DNA of 64,000 nt from Janthinobacterium sp. 61 (GTDB lineage: Bacteria; Pseudomonadota; Gammaproteobacteria; Burkholderiales; Burkholderiaceae_D), in NCBI RefSeq assembly GCF_002846335.1, contig NZ_PJMQ01000001.1:310001-374000 (forward strand), read 5' to 3'. A program made the position numbers and the translations under genes. The notes beneath the pieces were generated by a model, which did no database searches, was not told where the DNA came from, and saw only the letters and a list, made by a program, of their open reading frames with translations. Below, piece by piece: positions 10,276 through 14,960 of the stretch (position 1 is the first letter of the stretch; the number at the start of each line of letters is the position of its first letter).

Positions 10276-10932
10276 ATGAAAAGCAATACTTTCGCAACAA
10301 AAATGATGATAGGCGCGGCCAGCGTCGCCTGCAGCCTGCTGTTCGCGGCCAGCGCCTCGGCCAGTGCATTGGAACAGTTCAAAAGCTTTGCCGCCGGCAC
10401 CAAGTCGGCCAAGGGCGAGTTCGTGCAGCGCCAGGTCAAGAAGGCGGACGCCAGCGGCAAGGCGAAAGTGTCGACCCCGGCCAGCGGCACATTCGAGTTT
10501 GCCCGTCCAGGCAAGTTCATCTGGACCTATCTGAAACCGTACGAGCAGCTGCTGCAAGCCGATGGCGACAAGTTGTATATCTACGACAAGGATTTGAGCC
10601 AGGTGACGGTCAAGAAACTGGGCGACGCGCTCGGTTCCTCTCCGGCGGCCATCTTGTTTGGCAGCAACGACCTGGAAAAGAATTTCACCCTGGCCGAAGC
10701 GGGTACGCGCGACGGCCTGGAATGGCTGAAAGCGACGCCGAAGGCCAAGGATACGACGTTTGATGAAATCACCATCGGCCTGCGCAATGGCGTGCCCGAA
10801 GCGATGGAATTGCGTGACTCGTTCGGCCAGACCTCGGTGCTGGCGTTCAAGAATTTCCAGAAGAATCCAGCGCTATCTGTCAATCACTTTAAATTTGTCA
10901 TGCCCAAGGGTGCGGATGTGATTAATAATTAA
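10276..10932 (+). CDS. lolA: Outer-membrane lipoprotein carrier protein LolA
   Basis: A 218-residue periplasmic chaperone that takes lipoproteins from the LolCDE complex to LolB in the outer membrane. A cleavable signal peptide occupies about residues 1-27 (hydrophobic VACSLLFAASASASA before LEQF). The mature part has the LolA pattern: KSAKGEFVQRQ, GTFEFARPGKFIWTYLKPY, QLLQADGDKLYIYDKDLSQVTV and the C-terminal VNHFKFVMPKGADVI. The gene sits 5 bases after ftsK, the usual ftsK-lolA-rarA order in this group. A hairpin with a T-rich tail follows it. The length is normal. Confidence 0.95.
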   Translation: MKSNTFATKMMIGAASVACSLLFAASASASALEQFKSFAAGTKSAKGEFVQRQVKKADASGKAKVSTPASGTFEFARPGKFIWTYLKPYEQLLQADGDKLYIYDKDLSQVTVKKLGDALGSSPAAILFGSNDLEKNFTLAEAGTRDGLEWLKATPKAKDTTFDEITIGLRNGVPEAMELRDSFGQTSVLAFKNFQKNPALSVNHFKFVMPKGADVINN

Positions 10933-10958
10933 CGTCATTCGCGCTTCATTATCGACCG

Positions 10959-10986
10959 GCCTCGCAGCGATGCGGGGCTTTTGCTT
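10959..10986 (+). terminator. Terminator between lolA and rarA
   Basis: GCCTCGCA pairs with TGCGGGGC (one G-T wobble) around a GCGA loop, followed by a T-rich tail (CTTTTGCTTTTC). It probably ends the ftsK-lolA transcript. Confidence 0.65.
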
Positions 10987-11004
10987 TTCTTACTGGACAT
11001 TGTC

Positions 11005-12309
11005 ATGGCGGATCTGTTTTCGCAAAAGCCCGTGGCGCCGCTCGCAGAAGCGTTGCGCCCCAAGACCCTCGATGAGGTTGTTGGCCAGTCACATTTGCTG
11101 GGGGAAGGCAAGCCTTTAAGGCTTGCCTTCCAGTCGGGCCAGCCGCACTCCATGATTTTTTGGGGACCTCCGGGTGTTGGTAAAACCACTCTGGCGCGCC
11201 TGACTGCGTCGGCCTTCAAGTGCGAGTTCATTGCCCTCTCTGCCGTCTTCTCTGGCGTAAAGGATATTCGTGCCTCAATGGAGCAGGCTGAGCAGAATTT
11301 GGCTCTGGGTAAGCACACGATCTTGTTTGTGGACGAAATTCACAGGTTCAACAAGTCTCAACAGGATGCTCTTCTACCCTATGCGGAAAGCGGCTTGGTG
11401 ACCTTCATTGGAGCTACAACCGAGAACCCTTCTTTTGAGGTGAATTCCGCCTTGTTGTCACGTGCTCAGGTCTATGTCCTGAAATCGCTGACAGAGGAAG
11501 AACTCAAGCTGTTATTGACACGTGTTCAAGAGGAAGGCGTTCTTGGCGCTCTCAAGTTTGAAGACCAGGCTGTCGATACTATTATTGGCTATGCAGACGG
11601 TGACGCCCGGAGATTCTTGAATCTTCTGGAGCAGGCCAATACAGCGGCCAAGACCTCTGGTATCACGCTTATCACCGCTGACTTTCTTCAAAACGCGCTG
11701 ACCTTGAATAGTCGGCGGTTTGACAAAGGCGGGGATAATTTCTATGACCAGATTTCGGCCCTGCACAAATCTGTTCGCGGCTCCAATCCTGATGCGGCCC
11801 TTTACTGGCTAACGAGAATGTTGGACGGTGGTGCTGATCCTCGTTATTTGTCCCGGCGCATTGTTCGCATGGCATGGGAAGATATTGGTCTTGCCGATCC
11901 AAGGGCCATGCAGATTGCCAACGATGCAGCGTTGACGTATGAGCGCCTTGGCAGTCCGGAGGGTGAATTGGCCTTAGGCCAAGCGGTAATCTATCTGGCT
12001 GTTGCTGCTAAAAGCAATGCGGGCTACAACGCATATAACCAGGCCAGGGCATTTGTGAAGAAAGACAAAAGCCGTGAAGTACCCGTTCATTTGCGTAATG
12101 CTCCGACCAAGCTCATGAAAGAACTTGGCTATGGGCATGAATACCGATATGCTCATGATGAACCCAATGCTTATGCTGCTGGTGAAACCTATCTTCCTGA
12201 CGGTATTGGTGATCCAGGGTGGTACCAACCCGTACCAAGGGGGTTAGAGATCAAAATTGGTGAAAAGCTTGCTGTGCTCAGGAAGTGGGATAAAGAAGCG
12301 AGCAAGTAG
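11005..12309 (+). CDS. rarA: Replication-associated recombination protein A (RarA/MgsA), mosaic gene
   Basis: A 434-residue AAA+ ATPase of the clamp-loader-like RarA family, acting at stalled forks. Walker A is WGPPGVGKTTLAR; Walker B and box VII region are ILFVDEIHRFNKSQQDALLP; sensor 1 is FIGATTENPSFE. The C-terminal tetramerisation part includes YDQISALHKSVRGSNPDAALYW and HLRNAPTKLMKELGYGHEYRYAHDE. The ATG at 11005 matches the family N terminus (MADLFSQKP); an in-frame ATG at 10981 would add eight residues. Base composition changes inside the gene. The first 80-100 bases use GC-rich codons like the neighbours, while the rest uses many A/T-ending codons, continuing into the next two genes. 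A 29-base palindrome sits at the transition. The protein looks complete and functional. Confidence 0.93.
   Translation: MADLFSQKPVAPLAEALRPKTLDEVVGQSHLLGEGKPLRLAFQSGQPHSMIFWGPPGVGKTTLARLTASAFKCEFIALSAVFSGVKDIRASMEQAEQNLALGKHTILFVDEIHRFNKSQQDALLPYAESGLVTFIGATTENPSFEVNSALLSRAQVYVLKSLTEEELKLLLTRVQEEGVLGALKFEDQAVDTIIGYADGDARRFLNLLEQANTAAKTSGITLITADFLQNALTLNSRRFDKGGDNFYDQISALHKSVRGSNPDAALYWLTRMLDGGADPRYLSRRIVRMAWEDIGLADPRAMQIANDAALTYERLGSPEGELALGQAVIYLAVAAKSNAGYNAYNQARAFVKKDKSREVPVHLRNAPTKLMKELGYGHEYRYAHDEPNAYAAGETYLPDGIGDPGWYQPVPRGLEIKIGEKLAVLRKWDKEASK
11103..11131. repeat. 29-base perfect palindrome inside rarA
   Basis: GGAAGGCAAGCCTT and AAGGCTTGCCTTCC are perfect arms around a single central T. 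It encodes part of GEGKPLRLAFQ, a conserved stretch of RarA, so it is coding, but this length of perfect symmetry in a CDS is unusual. Confidence 0.9.
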
Positions 12310-12333
12310 GGATTTTCCAAGCACGAAACTGGT

Positions 12334-12370
12334 CATTGTTACCATTACATGATAGCGTTTGATAACAATG
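12334..12370. repeat. Dyad after rarA
   Basis: CATTGTTA and TAACAATG form 8-base arms around 21 bases, shortly after the rarA stop and within a 212-base AT-rich gap before the nuclease-like gene. It could be a weak terminator or an operator for the downstream pair. The remainder of the gap has several A/T-rich hexamers that could serve as a promoter, but none is decisive. Confidence 0.35.
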
Positions 12371-12521
12371 AAGTAGATGGTGCATATACGAGGAGTGAGT
12401 TGCTGAGGCTAATCAAAAAACTTTAATTTCCATGCTGTTAATTAGATAATTGTAAAATTACATATCGGGGAAAAGTTACTTTTGGCAATATTATCATTAA
12501 CTCCCTTTTAGCTAATTGAAC

Positions 12522-13181
12522 ATGAAAAAGCTCTTACTTGTTGATCTGGAAAACAAGCACAAGGTTGATTTGTCTACCCTCGATGAGAGCTTCCGAGCCA
12601 TCATCTTCGTCGGCGCCAATCAGAACCCTCCAAAAGCTGCCAGGAAGCCAGCAACGGCTCACAGGTTCAGCCGTGTGGACTTCCTGAAAATATCAGGTAG
12701 CGGCAAGAATGCCTTGGACTTCCATATAGCTTTTGAATTAGGTAGGACGTTTGAAACAGCTCCTGATACCCAATGCTTCGTACTCAGTGGCGATAAGGGT
12801 TTTGATCCGCTTCTGAACCACTTGAACATCAACGGCATGAGTTGCAAACGGGTGGAGAGCATTGCAGAGCTCGTGAGCACCAACATGGCGCCGGCCACGG
12901 TGCATGACCAAGTTGTCTGTCCTCATTGCAAGAAGGCCAGTACGATTGAGCACCACGGTGGTCATTGGTGTAGCAACTGCGGCAGGTTTGCTACACCACC
13001 CGATCCGAAGCTGTTGCCGTCTCATCAGGCGGGCTACACAGAGCCGAAACGATTTAAGTATGAAGATACCCATGCTTCCCATGAGTGTGGCTGGTGCAAC
13101 CAGCATACCGATATGACTGGAGGGATTTATGACGATGGCGAATGGATGTGTGGGAACTGTATAGCTCGTTATGCGACATAA
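12522..13181 (+). CDS. PIN/NYN-like nuclease with two zinc ribbons (putative defence gene)
   Basis: A 219-residue protein. Residues 1-120 look like a PIN/NYN-type RNase fold: an N-terminal strand ending in acidic residues (LLLVDLEN, Asp8 and Glu10), a helix with GKNALDFHIAFELGR (Asp66), and a strand with CFVLSGDKGFDPLLNHL (Asp91 and Asp95). Together these give the acidic cluster expected of the metal site. The C-terminal half has two CxxC pairs making one ribbon (Cys133/136/150/153) and two making another (Cys189/192/210/213), probably for nucleic-acid or protein binding. A TTG at 12516 is in frame; the ATG at 12522 is preferred, but the ribosome site is weak. Composition is low-GC like its partner 18 bases downstream. 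The family assignment comes from motif pattern, not from a search; the defence role is inferred. Confidence 0.7.
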   Translation: MKKLLLVDLENKHKVDLSTLDESFRAIIFVGANQNPPKAARKPATAHRFSRVDFLKISGSGKNALDFHIAFELGRTFETAPDTQCFVLSGDKGFDPLLNHLNINGMSCKRVESIAELVSTNMAPATVHDQVVCPHCKKASTIEHHGGHWCSNCGRFATPPDPKLLPSHQAGYTEPKRFKYEDTHASHECGWCNQHTDMTGGIYDDGEWMCGNCIARYAT

Positions 13182-13199
13182 ATTACAGTTTGGTGATAA

Positions 13200-14048
13200 A
13201 TGAAATTGTCGGATTTTTCAGCCCAAAGGATTGCTGAGTTCATTGCCGGTGATCTCAGCGGCTGGCCCTACAGAAGTGGGCCGAAGCTCGTTGCCTTTTT
13301 CAATAAAATGGGCTTCAGAGATGTCTATCAGCAAGGGTTTCCTAGTAGATCTGCTTTTTCCAAAGAAAAAGTAGCTGAACTTAATGGGAAACCTAAACTG
13401 AAGGACGTCATAAGAGAGATGCTTGATCCGAGACTGTGGATTGAGCTTGCTGCGAACGGACATGTTGTTGAAGCATGTGCGATCCAGCTAAACGAGATAT
13501 TACGCTATGACGGCTATGAAGCTATCCGTGATGGAAATTTCTATAAGGTTCGTGAATTAGCTGGTGGGATCATTGAAGTAGAAAATCGCTTTGAAGAGTC
13601 GCAAGAACTCGGTGAGCTCCTAATTGAAGAGCAGATTCAAAAGTGTCGAGAAAAAATTGATGTGGGTGATTATTCAGGTGCAATCACCAATGCTAGAAGC
13701 TTGATAGAGGCAGTATACGTCAAAATTGAGGCTGAGCTCGATCCCTCACAATCGGTAGGAAACGACGGTGATTTAGTGAAAATGTTCAACCGAACTCGTA
13801 AGCTACTTCAGTTAGATCCCAGTAGGCAAGACATTTCCGACTCACTCAAGCAGGTTTTAACTGGGCTAAGTAATATCATCAATGGTTTGGCGGCAATGCG
13901 AAATAAAATGTCCGATGCTCATGGCGTTACCTATAAGCCTAGTCGACATCATGCCAAACTTGCGGTTAATTCGGCCAAAACATTAGCTGATTTCCTCTTC
14001 GATTCTATGAGCTATCAAATCGGAAAAGGAAGCCTAACAAAGAAATAA
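13200..14048 (+). CDS. Abi_C (HEPN-like) abortive-infection family protein
   Basis: A 282-residue protein. The C-terminal part (about 145-275) matches the abortive-infection C-terminal domain: YSGAITNARSLIEAVYVKI, then a linker, then LKQVLTGLSNIINGLAAMRN and HHAKLAVNSAKTLADFL. Within it Arg234-Asn235 and His241 (RNKMSDAH) form an R-polar-x-H motif of the Rx4-6H type that marks HEPN RNases. The N-terminal 140 residues are not recognised. Abi_C proteins are known from phage-exclusion systems, where they shut down translation or cleave RNA. The gene starts 18 bases after the PIN-like gene, shares its low GC and ends at a good terminator, so the two form a compact operon. The substrate is unknown. 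Confidence 0.75.
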   Translation: MKLSDFSAQRIAEFIAGDLSGWPYRSGPKLVAFFNKMGFRDVYQQGFPSRSAFSKEKVAELNGKPKLKDVIREMLDPRLWIELAANGHVVEACAIQLNEILRYDGYEAIRDGNFYKVRELAGGIIEVENRFEESQELGELLIEEQIQKCREKIDVGDYSGAITNARSLIEAVYVKIEAELDPSQSVGNDGDLVKMFNRTRKLLQLDPSRQDISDSLKQVLTGLSNIINGLAAMRNKMSDAHGVTYKPSRHHAKLAVNSAKTLADFLFDSMSYQIGKGSLTKK

Positions 14049-14072
14049 AGAGCACCTTCGGGTGCTTTTTTG
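14048..14072 (+). terminator. Terminator of the putative defence operon
   Basis: A short GC stem, AGCACC-TTCG-GGTGCT, with a UUCG-type tetraloop followed by TTTTTT, directly after the Abi_C stop codon. Confidence 0.9.
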
Positions 14073-14216
14073 TACCCGGCACTTCAGCACCGCAAGTGCT
14101 TTTCCTATATGGATAAAAATTTTGAGGAAGTACATGAAGCTCAACATCGATCTTAGCACATGCCTTTATGAATCATAAAACATCAGCAATTGCTTTTGGC
14201 GGGGCAAGGGCTGAGG

Positions 14217-14960
14217 CTACAAACCCAGCAATGTAAAACCGTCATCCTGCGGCGCGTAGCCCACCAGCTGGCGCGTCGCCGTAATCGACAACCGTTTATA
14301 GCGGTTCTCCGATACCCCATGCACGACGTGGTAGCCGGCCGGCACCTGTGCACTCACGCAGCGGGCCAGCAGCTGTACTACGTCGCGTTCGCTGATAAAG
14401 GCGGCGATGTCGCGCGCGCTGTGCTGTTGACCTGGCGCAAAGTGGGCCACGTTGGCGATGCGCACGGCTATCGTCGTCATGCCATGCTGTTGCGCGAACG
14501 CGCAAGCCACGCCTTCGCCGAAGGCCTTGCTGGCGCCATACATGTTGGCTGGCCGGGCCGGCATGTTTTCCTGCACCTGCATATCCAGCGGATAGCCTTC
14601 CACGGCTTGCGCGCTGCTGGCAAACACCACTCTTTTCACTCCCTGCGCCTGTGCCGCGCGGAAGATGTTGTGCGTGCCGATGATGTTCGGCTGCAGCAAT
14701 TGCGCATCGAAGTCGGCGCTGGCGTGCGGCACGCCGGCCAAGTGCAGTACCACGTCGACGTCCGCGCAGGCAGCCAGGCAGGCGGCGTAGTCGGCCACAT
14801 CGAGCCGAGTGGAGGGGCAGGGCGCTTCAGCCAATCCCTCAGGGTGCAGGTCGGCCAGGCGCAGGGAGAATTCCCCGTGCCGGCGCTTCCAGAAAGCGGT
14901 GCCGATGATGCCGGCCGCGCCCGTGACGAGGACGCGTAATGGTGTGGCTGCTAGAGTCAT
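14217..14960 (-). CDS. NAD(P)-dependent epimerase/dehydratase, uronate dehydrogenase-like
   Basis: A 247-residue extended-SDR protein. The Rossmann motif is VLVTGAAGIIGTAF (GxxGxxG). HLAGVPHASADFD, FASSAQAVEGYP and the catalytic YGASK follow, a pattern close to bacterial NAD-dependent uronate dehydrogenases (Udh), which oxidise galacturonate or glucuronate to the lactone. The protein is slightly shorter than typical Udh (about 265), and there are no uronate catabolic neighbours, so the substrate is open. Its ATG overlaps the stop of the upstream DUF2917 gene by ATGA at 14957-14960, so the two are translationally coupled. It ends close to the boundary of the low-GC island. Confidence 0.75.
   Translation of the reverse strand: MTLAATPLRVLVTGAAGIIGTAFWKRRHGEFSLRLADLHPEGLAEAPCPSTRLDVADYAACLAACADVDVVLHLAGVPHASADFDAQLLQPNIIGTHNIFRAAQAQGVKRVVFASSAQAVEGYPLDMQVQENMPARPANMYGASKAFGEGVACAFAQQHGMTTIAVRIANVAHFAPGQQHSARDIAAFISERDVVQLLARCVSAQVPAGYHVVHGVSENRYKRLSITATRQLVGYAPQDDGFTLLGL

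Follow-up and report, generated by a model that had tools for sequence, protein, structure and literature searches.

A foreign rarA gene followed by PIN7 and AbiJ genes in Janthinobacterium sp. 61: a probable derivative of a rarA-targeting integrative and mobilizable element

Structure of the Locus

The window, i.e., the whole 64-kb stretch of Janthinobacterium sp. 61 DNA that was analyzed, contained two plus-strand genes separated by 18 bp, in agreement with the original prediction as to their coordinates and spacing. The first gene (12522–13181, from the ATG at 12522 to the stop at 13181; 219 aa) encoded a PIN7-family protein with two four-cysteine zinc-ribbon-like segments, and the second (13200–14048, from the ATG at 13200 to the stop at 14048; 282 aa) encoded an AbiJ-type protein with a largely helical N-terminal part and a C-terminal Abi_C (HEPN-like) domain carrying R234-x6-H241. 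The low GC content ascribed to the pair was found as well, namely, 0.507 for the PIN gene and 0.433 for the Abi gene vs. 0.61–0.65 for ftsK, the SDR gene, a regulator/aminotransferase-like gene, and serS. As to the joint terminator proposed for the two genes, a hairpin with a T-run (14050–14071, plus strand) was read from the sequence and is a probable terminator, whereas the terminator scan reported this hairpin solely for the minus strand, its total of 5 sites being not clearly above the 3.3 expected. The 26 bp with this hairpin (14047–14072, behind AbiJ) were identical to positions 2889–2914 of locus L040, just 3' of the integrase gene of an element; this shared stretch may be a carried-over cassette border.

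The pair was preceded by a 212-bp spacer (12310–12521), in which no consensus promoter was found, and by a complete rarA gene, hereafter rarA' (11005–12309, plus strand), with a GC content of 0.516 vs. 0.61–0.63 in ten congeners, to whose native rarA products (10 of 10) it had a protein identity of 78.8–80.7%. The neighboring genes had identities of >99% (ftsK), 97.7–99.1% (lolA, the native left flank; 10276–10932, plus strand), 98.4–98.6% (serS), and 87.7–92.8% (SDR) in the four closest congeners, with minima over all ten of 91.5% for ftsK, 83.3% for lolA (range 83.3–99.1%), and 90.7% for serS. The SDR/epimerase gene, which is the native right flank (14217–14960, minus strand), was found 3' of native rarA in 7 of the 10 congener loci (identity 72–93%), the other three giving no tblastn match.

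According to blastn, DNA identity to the ten congener loci dropped at ~10.9 kb and resumed at 14,203, and the insert leftover behind the terminator (14072–14202) aligned with none of these loci. In the fine alignment, native sequence extended to approximately the 17th base of rarA, comprising the retained lolA–rarA intergenic region and the first ~17 nt of native rarA (10933–11021, plus strand; aligned with native rarA of two congeners and with the native remnant of congener G696). On the right side, the last 12 bases of native rarA, i.e., its last codons and stop (GGCAAGGGCTGA; 14203–14214, plus strand; aligned with three congeners and G696), were left behind before the SDR gene. Since the start and the last 12 bp of native rarA flank the foreign stretch, native rarA has been replaced by rarA'–PIN–AbiJ. 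Thus, the original view of an insertion in a run of housekeeping genes was right in that the segment is foreign, but it placed the start too late, because the upstream rarA is also foreign and the insert spans ~11.0–14.2 kb.

Phylogenetic analysis of the C-terminal region of rarA (34 rows) grouped the window rarA with rarA' of G696 (support 93/90, just below the strict mark of the tree), and the ten native congener sequences together with the G696 native remnant formed a separate clade (100/97); 16 of the 31 inner branches of this tree were open, and four rows had long branches. The best 120 of 8000 protein matches included Janthinobacterium rivuli and Janthinobacterium sp. MDB2-8 (98–99%), as well as Alcaligenes, Herbaspirillum, Aquitalea, and Niveibacterium (90–91%). 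In a genus sample of 40 genomes, a single native-type rarA (70–81%) was present in 37, no match was obtained in one, G696 had both types, and the remaining genome was that of the window (G000). In plasmids, rarA was found in 100 records with a best identity of 73%, and the 90% allele was found in none of them. Judging by these comparisons, the window rarA is foreign and has replaced the native gene.

Predicted Proteins

Both proteins belong to the families named in the original prediction, PIN-type and Abi_C-type. The first one matched Pfam PIN7 (PF18475, E-value = 2e-19, 70.5 bits vs. a cut-off of 34). The acidic cluster singled out earlier (D8, E10, D66, D91, and D95), which we take to be the catalytic set of PIN-like nucleases, was invariant in 68 of 68 rows (the query and 67 of 120 listed hits), and so were, in the same rows, the cysteines of the two four-cysteine ribbons (C133, C136, C150, C153, C189, C192, C210, and C213). 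This protein had no PADLOC match, and neither it nor AbiJ reached an NCBIfam cut-off. The AlphaFold2 model of the PIN protein was weak (pLDDT 69.3, pTM 0.42), and no PIN structure was present among the top 50 listed of its 394 Foldseek matches; the matches obtained, mostly phosphoribosyltransferases, were discarded (E-values of 0.047 and above). Comparison with the sequences of solved structures returned only BURRH (1e-4), which was judged to be a chance match.

The second protein matched Pfam Abi_C (PF14355, E-value = 1e-21, 77.2 bits vs. a cut-off of 24), and R234, N235, and H241 of the R-N-...-H motif pointed out earlier were invariant in 55 of 55 rows (the query and 54 of 120 listed hits); the HEPN motif has the form R-x4-6-H. 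Residues 69–267 matched PADLOC AbiJ (3.2e-23). Residues 9–110 matched the N-terminal stretch of PADLOC Stk2 (5e-10), and this part may belong to AbiJ-NTD1, an N-terminal domain of ~140 aa; kinases fused to AbiJ-NTD1 are listed in a survey of the HEPN superfamily (PMC3710099). The top four Foldseek matches of the AbiJ model (pLDDT 81.5) were HEPN domains (probability 0.91–1.00, TMt 0.52–0.71, E-value 0.18–0.44); the best of them, 2hsb (probability 1.00, TMt 0.71, E-value 0.18), was not significant alone, and none of the 256 matches had an E-value ≤ 0.001. Designed, TPR-like, and other unrelated proteins found among the sequences of solved structures at E-values of 0.015 and above were judged to be chance matches. 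PIN7 and AbiJ would be expected to have RNase activity and an anti-phage effect.

Distribution of the PIN7 and AbiJ Genes

The expectation of a conserved two-gene system was not borne out. In the survey of 399 genomes of the order (E-value ≤ 0.001), relatives of the PIN gene were found in 29 and relatives of the Abi gene in 16, with only the window genome having both (~1.2 expected by chance); in the family survey, PIN relatives occurred in 11 of 392 genomes. Each gene has near relatives that are not accompanied by the other. The window genome contains a second PIN copy (92% protein identity, and 88% DNA identity over the gene alone), which lies in a different mobilizable element, 8 bp 3' of GajB in a Gabija system and without an Abi gene. 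This element (L004, G000:C1:5884000-5903000) carried an integrase, Gabija (GajA 1.4e-202, GajB 1.6e-168), the second PIN copy, a 209-aa ORF, a relaxase, and MobC, and adjoined an ABC-F-like gene. AbiJ relatives were detected 2 bp behind a type III restriction enzyme in Methylophilus and 38 bp behind PDC-M53B (candidate PDC-M53) in L040, and Abi homologues with 74–81% identity were detected on Acinetobacter plasmids, with no adjoining PIN gene in five regions inspected. The presumed defense neighborhood was only partly found: some homologues of each gene adjoin Gabija, SMEK, type III R-M, or candidate PDC-M53, but no PADLOC match was obtained for the neighbors of PIN relatives that were tested, two in G389 and one in G459, which counts against a general defense context.

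A dedicated two-protein RNA-targeting defense or toxin-type system, in which PIN7 and AbiJ act jointly or one restrains the other, is quite improbable in view of this distribution, with relatives of both genes in 1 of 399 genomes and near relatives alone, with Gabija, type III R-M, SMEK, or PDC-M53, or on plasmids without PIN. It is nevertheless suggested by the common strand, the 18-bp gap, the single probable terminator, and the assignment of both proteins to putative RNase families, as well as by protein clusters P0007 and P0162, whose longest contigs both measure 40582, so that the PIN–Abi pair may recur once, adjacency not having been seen. Most likely, PIN7 and AbiJ would be two independent accessory ribonucleases acting on RNA in phage infection and not an obligate pair.

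The scan of viral contigs with PIN and Abi revealed no locus, and phage records gave only distant matches, all below 60% identity. A distant PIN relative (~30% in the listed rows) was found in 2936 plasmid records, 2301 of them from Klebsiella; in the one record inspected, Ig-like genes adjoin it. The 11-kb record of Acinetobacter johnsonii plasmid pAcsw19-1 (L054) contained the AbiJ gene and the adjoining relaxase gene twice each, and the AbiJ relative of L047 (G058:C2:727029-727886; 68%) had an in-frame stop and was apparently broken.

Elements Inserted in rarA of Related Bacteria

In congener G696, rarA' (93%) was accompanied by the C-terminal part of native rarA (83%) located ~31 kb further on. 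The left side of this locus was ordered as lolA, the N-part of native rarA, rarA', a 75-aa ORF, a 315-aa ORF, and a C5-methyltransferase with a 384-aa ORF; on the right side, a relaxase-like gene, MobC, another methyltransferase, an integrase, the C-part of native rarA, and the SDR gene followed. The same plan was repeated in Limnohabitans 2KL-17 (G779), with SMEK and AbiJ. Both elements were inserted at the same rarA codons: the core TTCAACAA(A), which corresponds to the F-N-K codons of HRFNK in native rarA, was present at both ends of both elements, at a core-to-core distance of 32.3 kb in G696 and 22.0 kb in G779. The longest word common to the two G696 ends was the 9-bp TAATTGTGC, not the 8-bp core TTCAACAA, and TTGTGCA-like words near both of these ends could be integrase arm sites.

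The integrase assignment is based on a Pfam match of the G779 copy (7.9e-13), to which the G696 copy was 82% identical. MobC had a Pfam match of 4.3e-7 in related elements, and the relaxase matched Pfam on the L004 homologue alone (2.4e-5), the L041 relaxase having no match. Relaxase (68–74%) and MobC (72–87%) were common to the rarA elements and to the Gabija/second-PIN element of the window genome; the latter and L040 shared an integrase (90%), and both shared relaxase and MobC with G779 and G696. Thus, an exchange of cargo between element classes is probable.

The rarA-class integrase had no match at an E-value ≤ 1e-40 in 340 genomes of the order, a blank that says little since neither known carrier (G696, G779) was in that sample. 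This integrase was found in no plasmid, neither it nor the left-end pattern revealed a locus in viral contigs, and the element relaxase was found in a single plasmid record (29.6%). Loss of element parts was also observed: the PIN gene of G400 (L068 9025-9693) was cut at approximately residue 161, with native rarA sequence resuming there, and the C-part of native rarA was not found in G121 (Sulfuriferula), which indicates that decay occurs.

Left End and Possible Translational Coupling

The left junction was located at the same codons in all five loci in which the native N-part was found (G696, G779, G400, G223, and G121), and the distance from the core to the ATG of rarA' was 94 bp in the first four and 106 bp in G121. 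In the former, the native frame remained open through the left end, and its TGA overlapped the start of rarA' (ATGNCTGA), which suggests coupled translation of rarA'; the native frame of G121 ended 13 bp before this start. The left ends were 67–82% identical to one another; being homologous, they are not independent cases. Variable sites were distributed as 11, 10, and 13 over the three codon positions, i.e., with no third-position bias, on which ground a selected peptide encoded by the 94-bp left end was ruled out. The other two frames had 0–3 stops, and 13–23% of the shuffled left ends stayed open; these figures caution against reading too much into the open frame.

Genes Located Behind rarA'

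Cargo was recognized behind rarA' in eight loci and varied in kind. In addition to PIN7 and AbiJ of the window, it comprised AbiJ in G121; SMEK followed by AbiJ in G779; SMEK, a GHKL ATPase, a 250-aa ORF, and PIN7 in G400; a C5-methyltransferase with a NotI-like enzyme in G077; and PADLOC Hp1 in G223. In G205, where rarA' was only 74% identical, an Eco29kI-like enzyme and a C5-methyltransferase were followed by the native rarA C-part before serS, and in G696 the 75-aa ORF of unrecognized kind was followed further on by a methyltransferase. The distance between the rarA' stop and the first ORF was −4 to +60 bp in seven of the eight cargo loci and 212 bp in the window. The rarA' and cargo clusters shared the longest-contig figures 45015, 45732, 16994, and 10686, which fits linkage, adjacency not being shown by such figures.

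A set of 16 loci was mostly chosen for high rarA identity or two rarA matches and not at random, so no prevalence follows from it. Three of its members had clear intact cargo, 12 did not (eight as inspected by eye, with rarA at 84–91%, and four near serS), and rarA of G058 was unremarkable (62%). No defense gene was recognized by eye in G178, where ordinary-looking genes lie behind rarA, or in G133, G101, G377, G326, G007, and G009, which are outside the cargo count; in G238, G285, G112, and G308, rarA (79.8–85%) was located within ~90–540 bp of serS. Consequently, a high-identity rarA allele is not by itself indicative of the element, and the proposal that every rarA at 80–91% identity is element-borne was ruled out by the high-identity loci without clear cargo. 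In G327 (L125 16145-16382), the eighth of the loci inspected by eye and likewise outside the cargo count, broken SMEK pieces lie right behind rarA (86%) with a transposase-like ORF nearby, which is possibly decayed cargo.

Origin of the Segment

The segment is best explained, with a probability of roughly 70%, as being derived from a rarA-targeting integrative and mobilizable element (IME) that collapsed and lost its mobility. Judging from the junctions in the relatives, such an element would insert by site-specific recombination into the F-N-K codons of native rarA, near Walker B. The insertion would break native rarA, and the element would supply a complete diverged rarA' starting ~94 bp inside its left end, with the host thereby retaining RarA protein. 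The broken native frame would cross the left end and stop on the start codon of rarA', where ribosomes would probably re-initiate, and the cargo, lying on the same strand behind rarA', would probably be expressed with it; this cargo is interchangeable (type II R-M, SMEK, GHKL ATPase, AbiJ, and PIN7). A later recombination or deletion event in the window would have joined the native rarA start to rarA' with loss of the integrase and mobilization genes, leaving rarA'–PIN–AbiJ in the native rarA position. The collapse would have taken place in the lineage of the window, although replacement by a donor already carrying rarA'–PIN–AbiJ fits the window equally well.

The two integrases, the relaxase, and MobC had no match in the 64-kb window (tblastn, E-value ≤ 0.001), for which reason the segment is called a derivative of an IME and not an IME itself; this blank, together with the 12 of 16 chosen loci in which no clear intact cargo was seen, slightly reduces confidence in the explanation. 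Between 10.9 and 14.3 kb, the sole TTCAACAA was inside rarA' (11347), not at an element end. Such an absence of remaining element genes, together with the clean ends at the start and stop of rarA, would also be expected of plain allelic exchange, in which donor DNA with its own rarA and two accessory genes replaced native rarA homologously, with no rarA-targeting element in the lineage. This course of events is unlikely, however, considering that congener G696 has the element in this very gene, that its rarA' groups closest to that of the window, and that 26 bp of the window are identical to the stretch behind the element integrase in L040.

It is very improbable that rarA' is itself part of the defense function (e.g., guarding replication forks during the action of a cargo nuclease) and not a mere replacement. 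The close position of the first ORF behind rarA' in seven of eight cargo loci agrees with such a role, but cargo of these types is also found without rarA' in L004, L040, L043, and plasmids, and rarA' sits where the loss of native rarA needs making good.

Returning to the derivation from an IME, a wider proposal, which we consider evenly balanced, is that a proteobacterial element family breaks rarA near its Walker B codons and supplies its own translationally coupled rarA and swappable defense genes read from a housekeeping promoter; after decay of the mobility genes, the host would keep the foreign rarA as its sole copy together with the defense cargo, which would be a route to fixation. If true, this would explain defense genes behind a core gene that annotation takes as ordinary. 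The fixed site, the supplied gene, and the stop/start overlap make up a testable scheme of how a conserved gene can be hit in its middle with the host keeping a working copy.

It should be noted that the HRFNK codons of the window rarA' contained TTCAACAA, and those of rarA' in G696 and G779 contained TTCAATAA, a silent change; native genes also vary at this site. This change might protect the element copies from re-insertion.

Comparison with Known Systems

IMEs usually use gene ends. The relatives in G696 and G779 resemble IMEs in having a tyrosine integrase, a relaxase-like gene, MobC, and a specific site, whereas the window copy has no integrase, relaxase, or MobC, and the rarA element differs from IMEs in being inserted in the middle of a gene with a whole replacement gene.

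An insert that interrupts rarA and brings a rarA of its own has already been published for clostridia, in the form of a cassette located at codon 102 of the split gene and containing an intact diverged copy (Hill 2009, PMC2764570; Carter 2016, PMC4824171; also PMC8310154). As described in the relevant parts of these reports, it shares with the rarA element a fixed codon in rarA, a native gene in two parts, and a complete diverged rarA supplied; it differs in cargo and phylum, and these parts do not describe defense genes as cargo. They describe no relaxase inside the cassette, mentioning an IS element, a resolvase, and a site-specific recombinase nearby (in one strain, an integrase/transposase). 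The recognition site proposed there is TTCATC vs. TTCAACAA(A) here; this motif may fall within the Walker B codons, near the present site. If the clostridial and proteobacterial elements use rarA independently, the question arises as to why rarA is a preferred target. No report of a rarA-targeting, defense-carrying proteobacterial counterpart was found in the literature searched, which did not extend to most subscription journals or to any preprints, and the main text of a paper on E. coli defense islands (PMC10121019) mentions none of rarA, serS, lolA, and ycaJ.

AbiJ has been placed in the HEPN superfamily, with fusions and a proposed suicide-RNase role (Anantharaman 2013, PMC3710099). The AbiJ proteins in the relevant account there are similar to the second gene product of the window in the Abi_C domain, R-x6-H, and a separate N-terminal domain, and a PIN neighbor such as that in the window is absent from this account. 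DS-3 and DS-5 are validated PIN-containing phage defense systems (DefensePredictor, PMC13092281); in the portions of that paper dealing with them, no cognate antitoxin is reported for DS-3, and DS-5 is judged likely not to be a toxin–antitoxin system. They are comparable to the PIN7 gene of the window in that a PIN ribonuclease is described in a one- or two-gene defense system, and they differ in the partner. Another rarA on a mobile element is that of Ralstonia RSM-type inoviruses, which are stated to encode RarA in the part of PMC9535894 concerning them.
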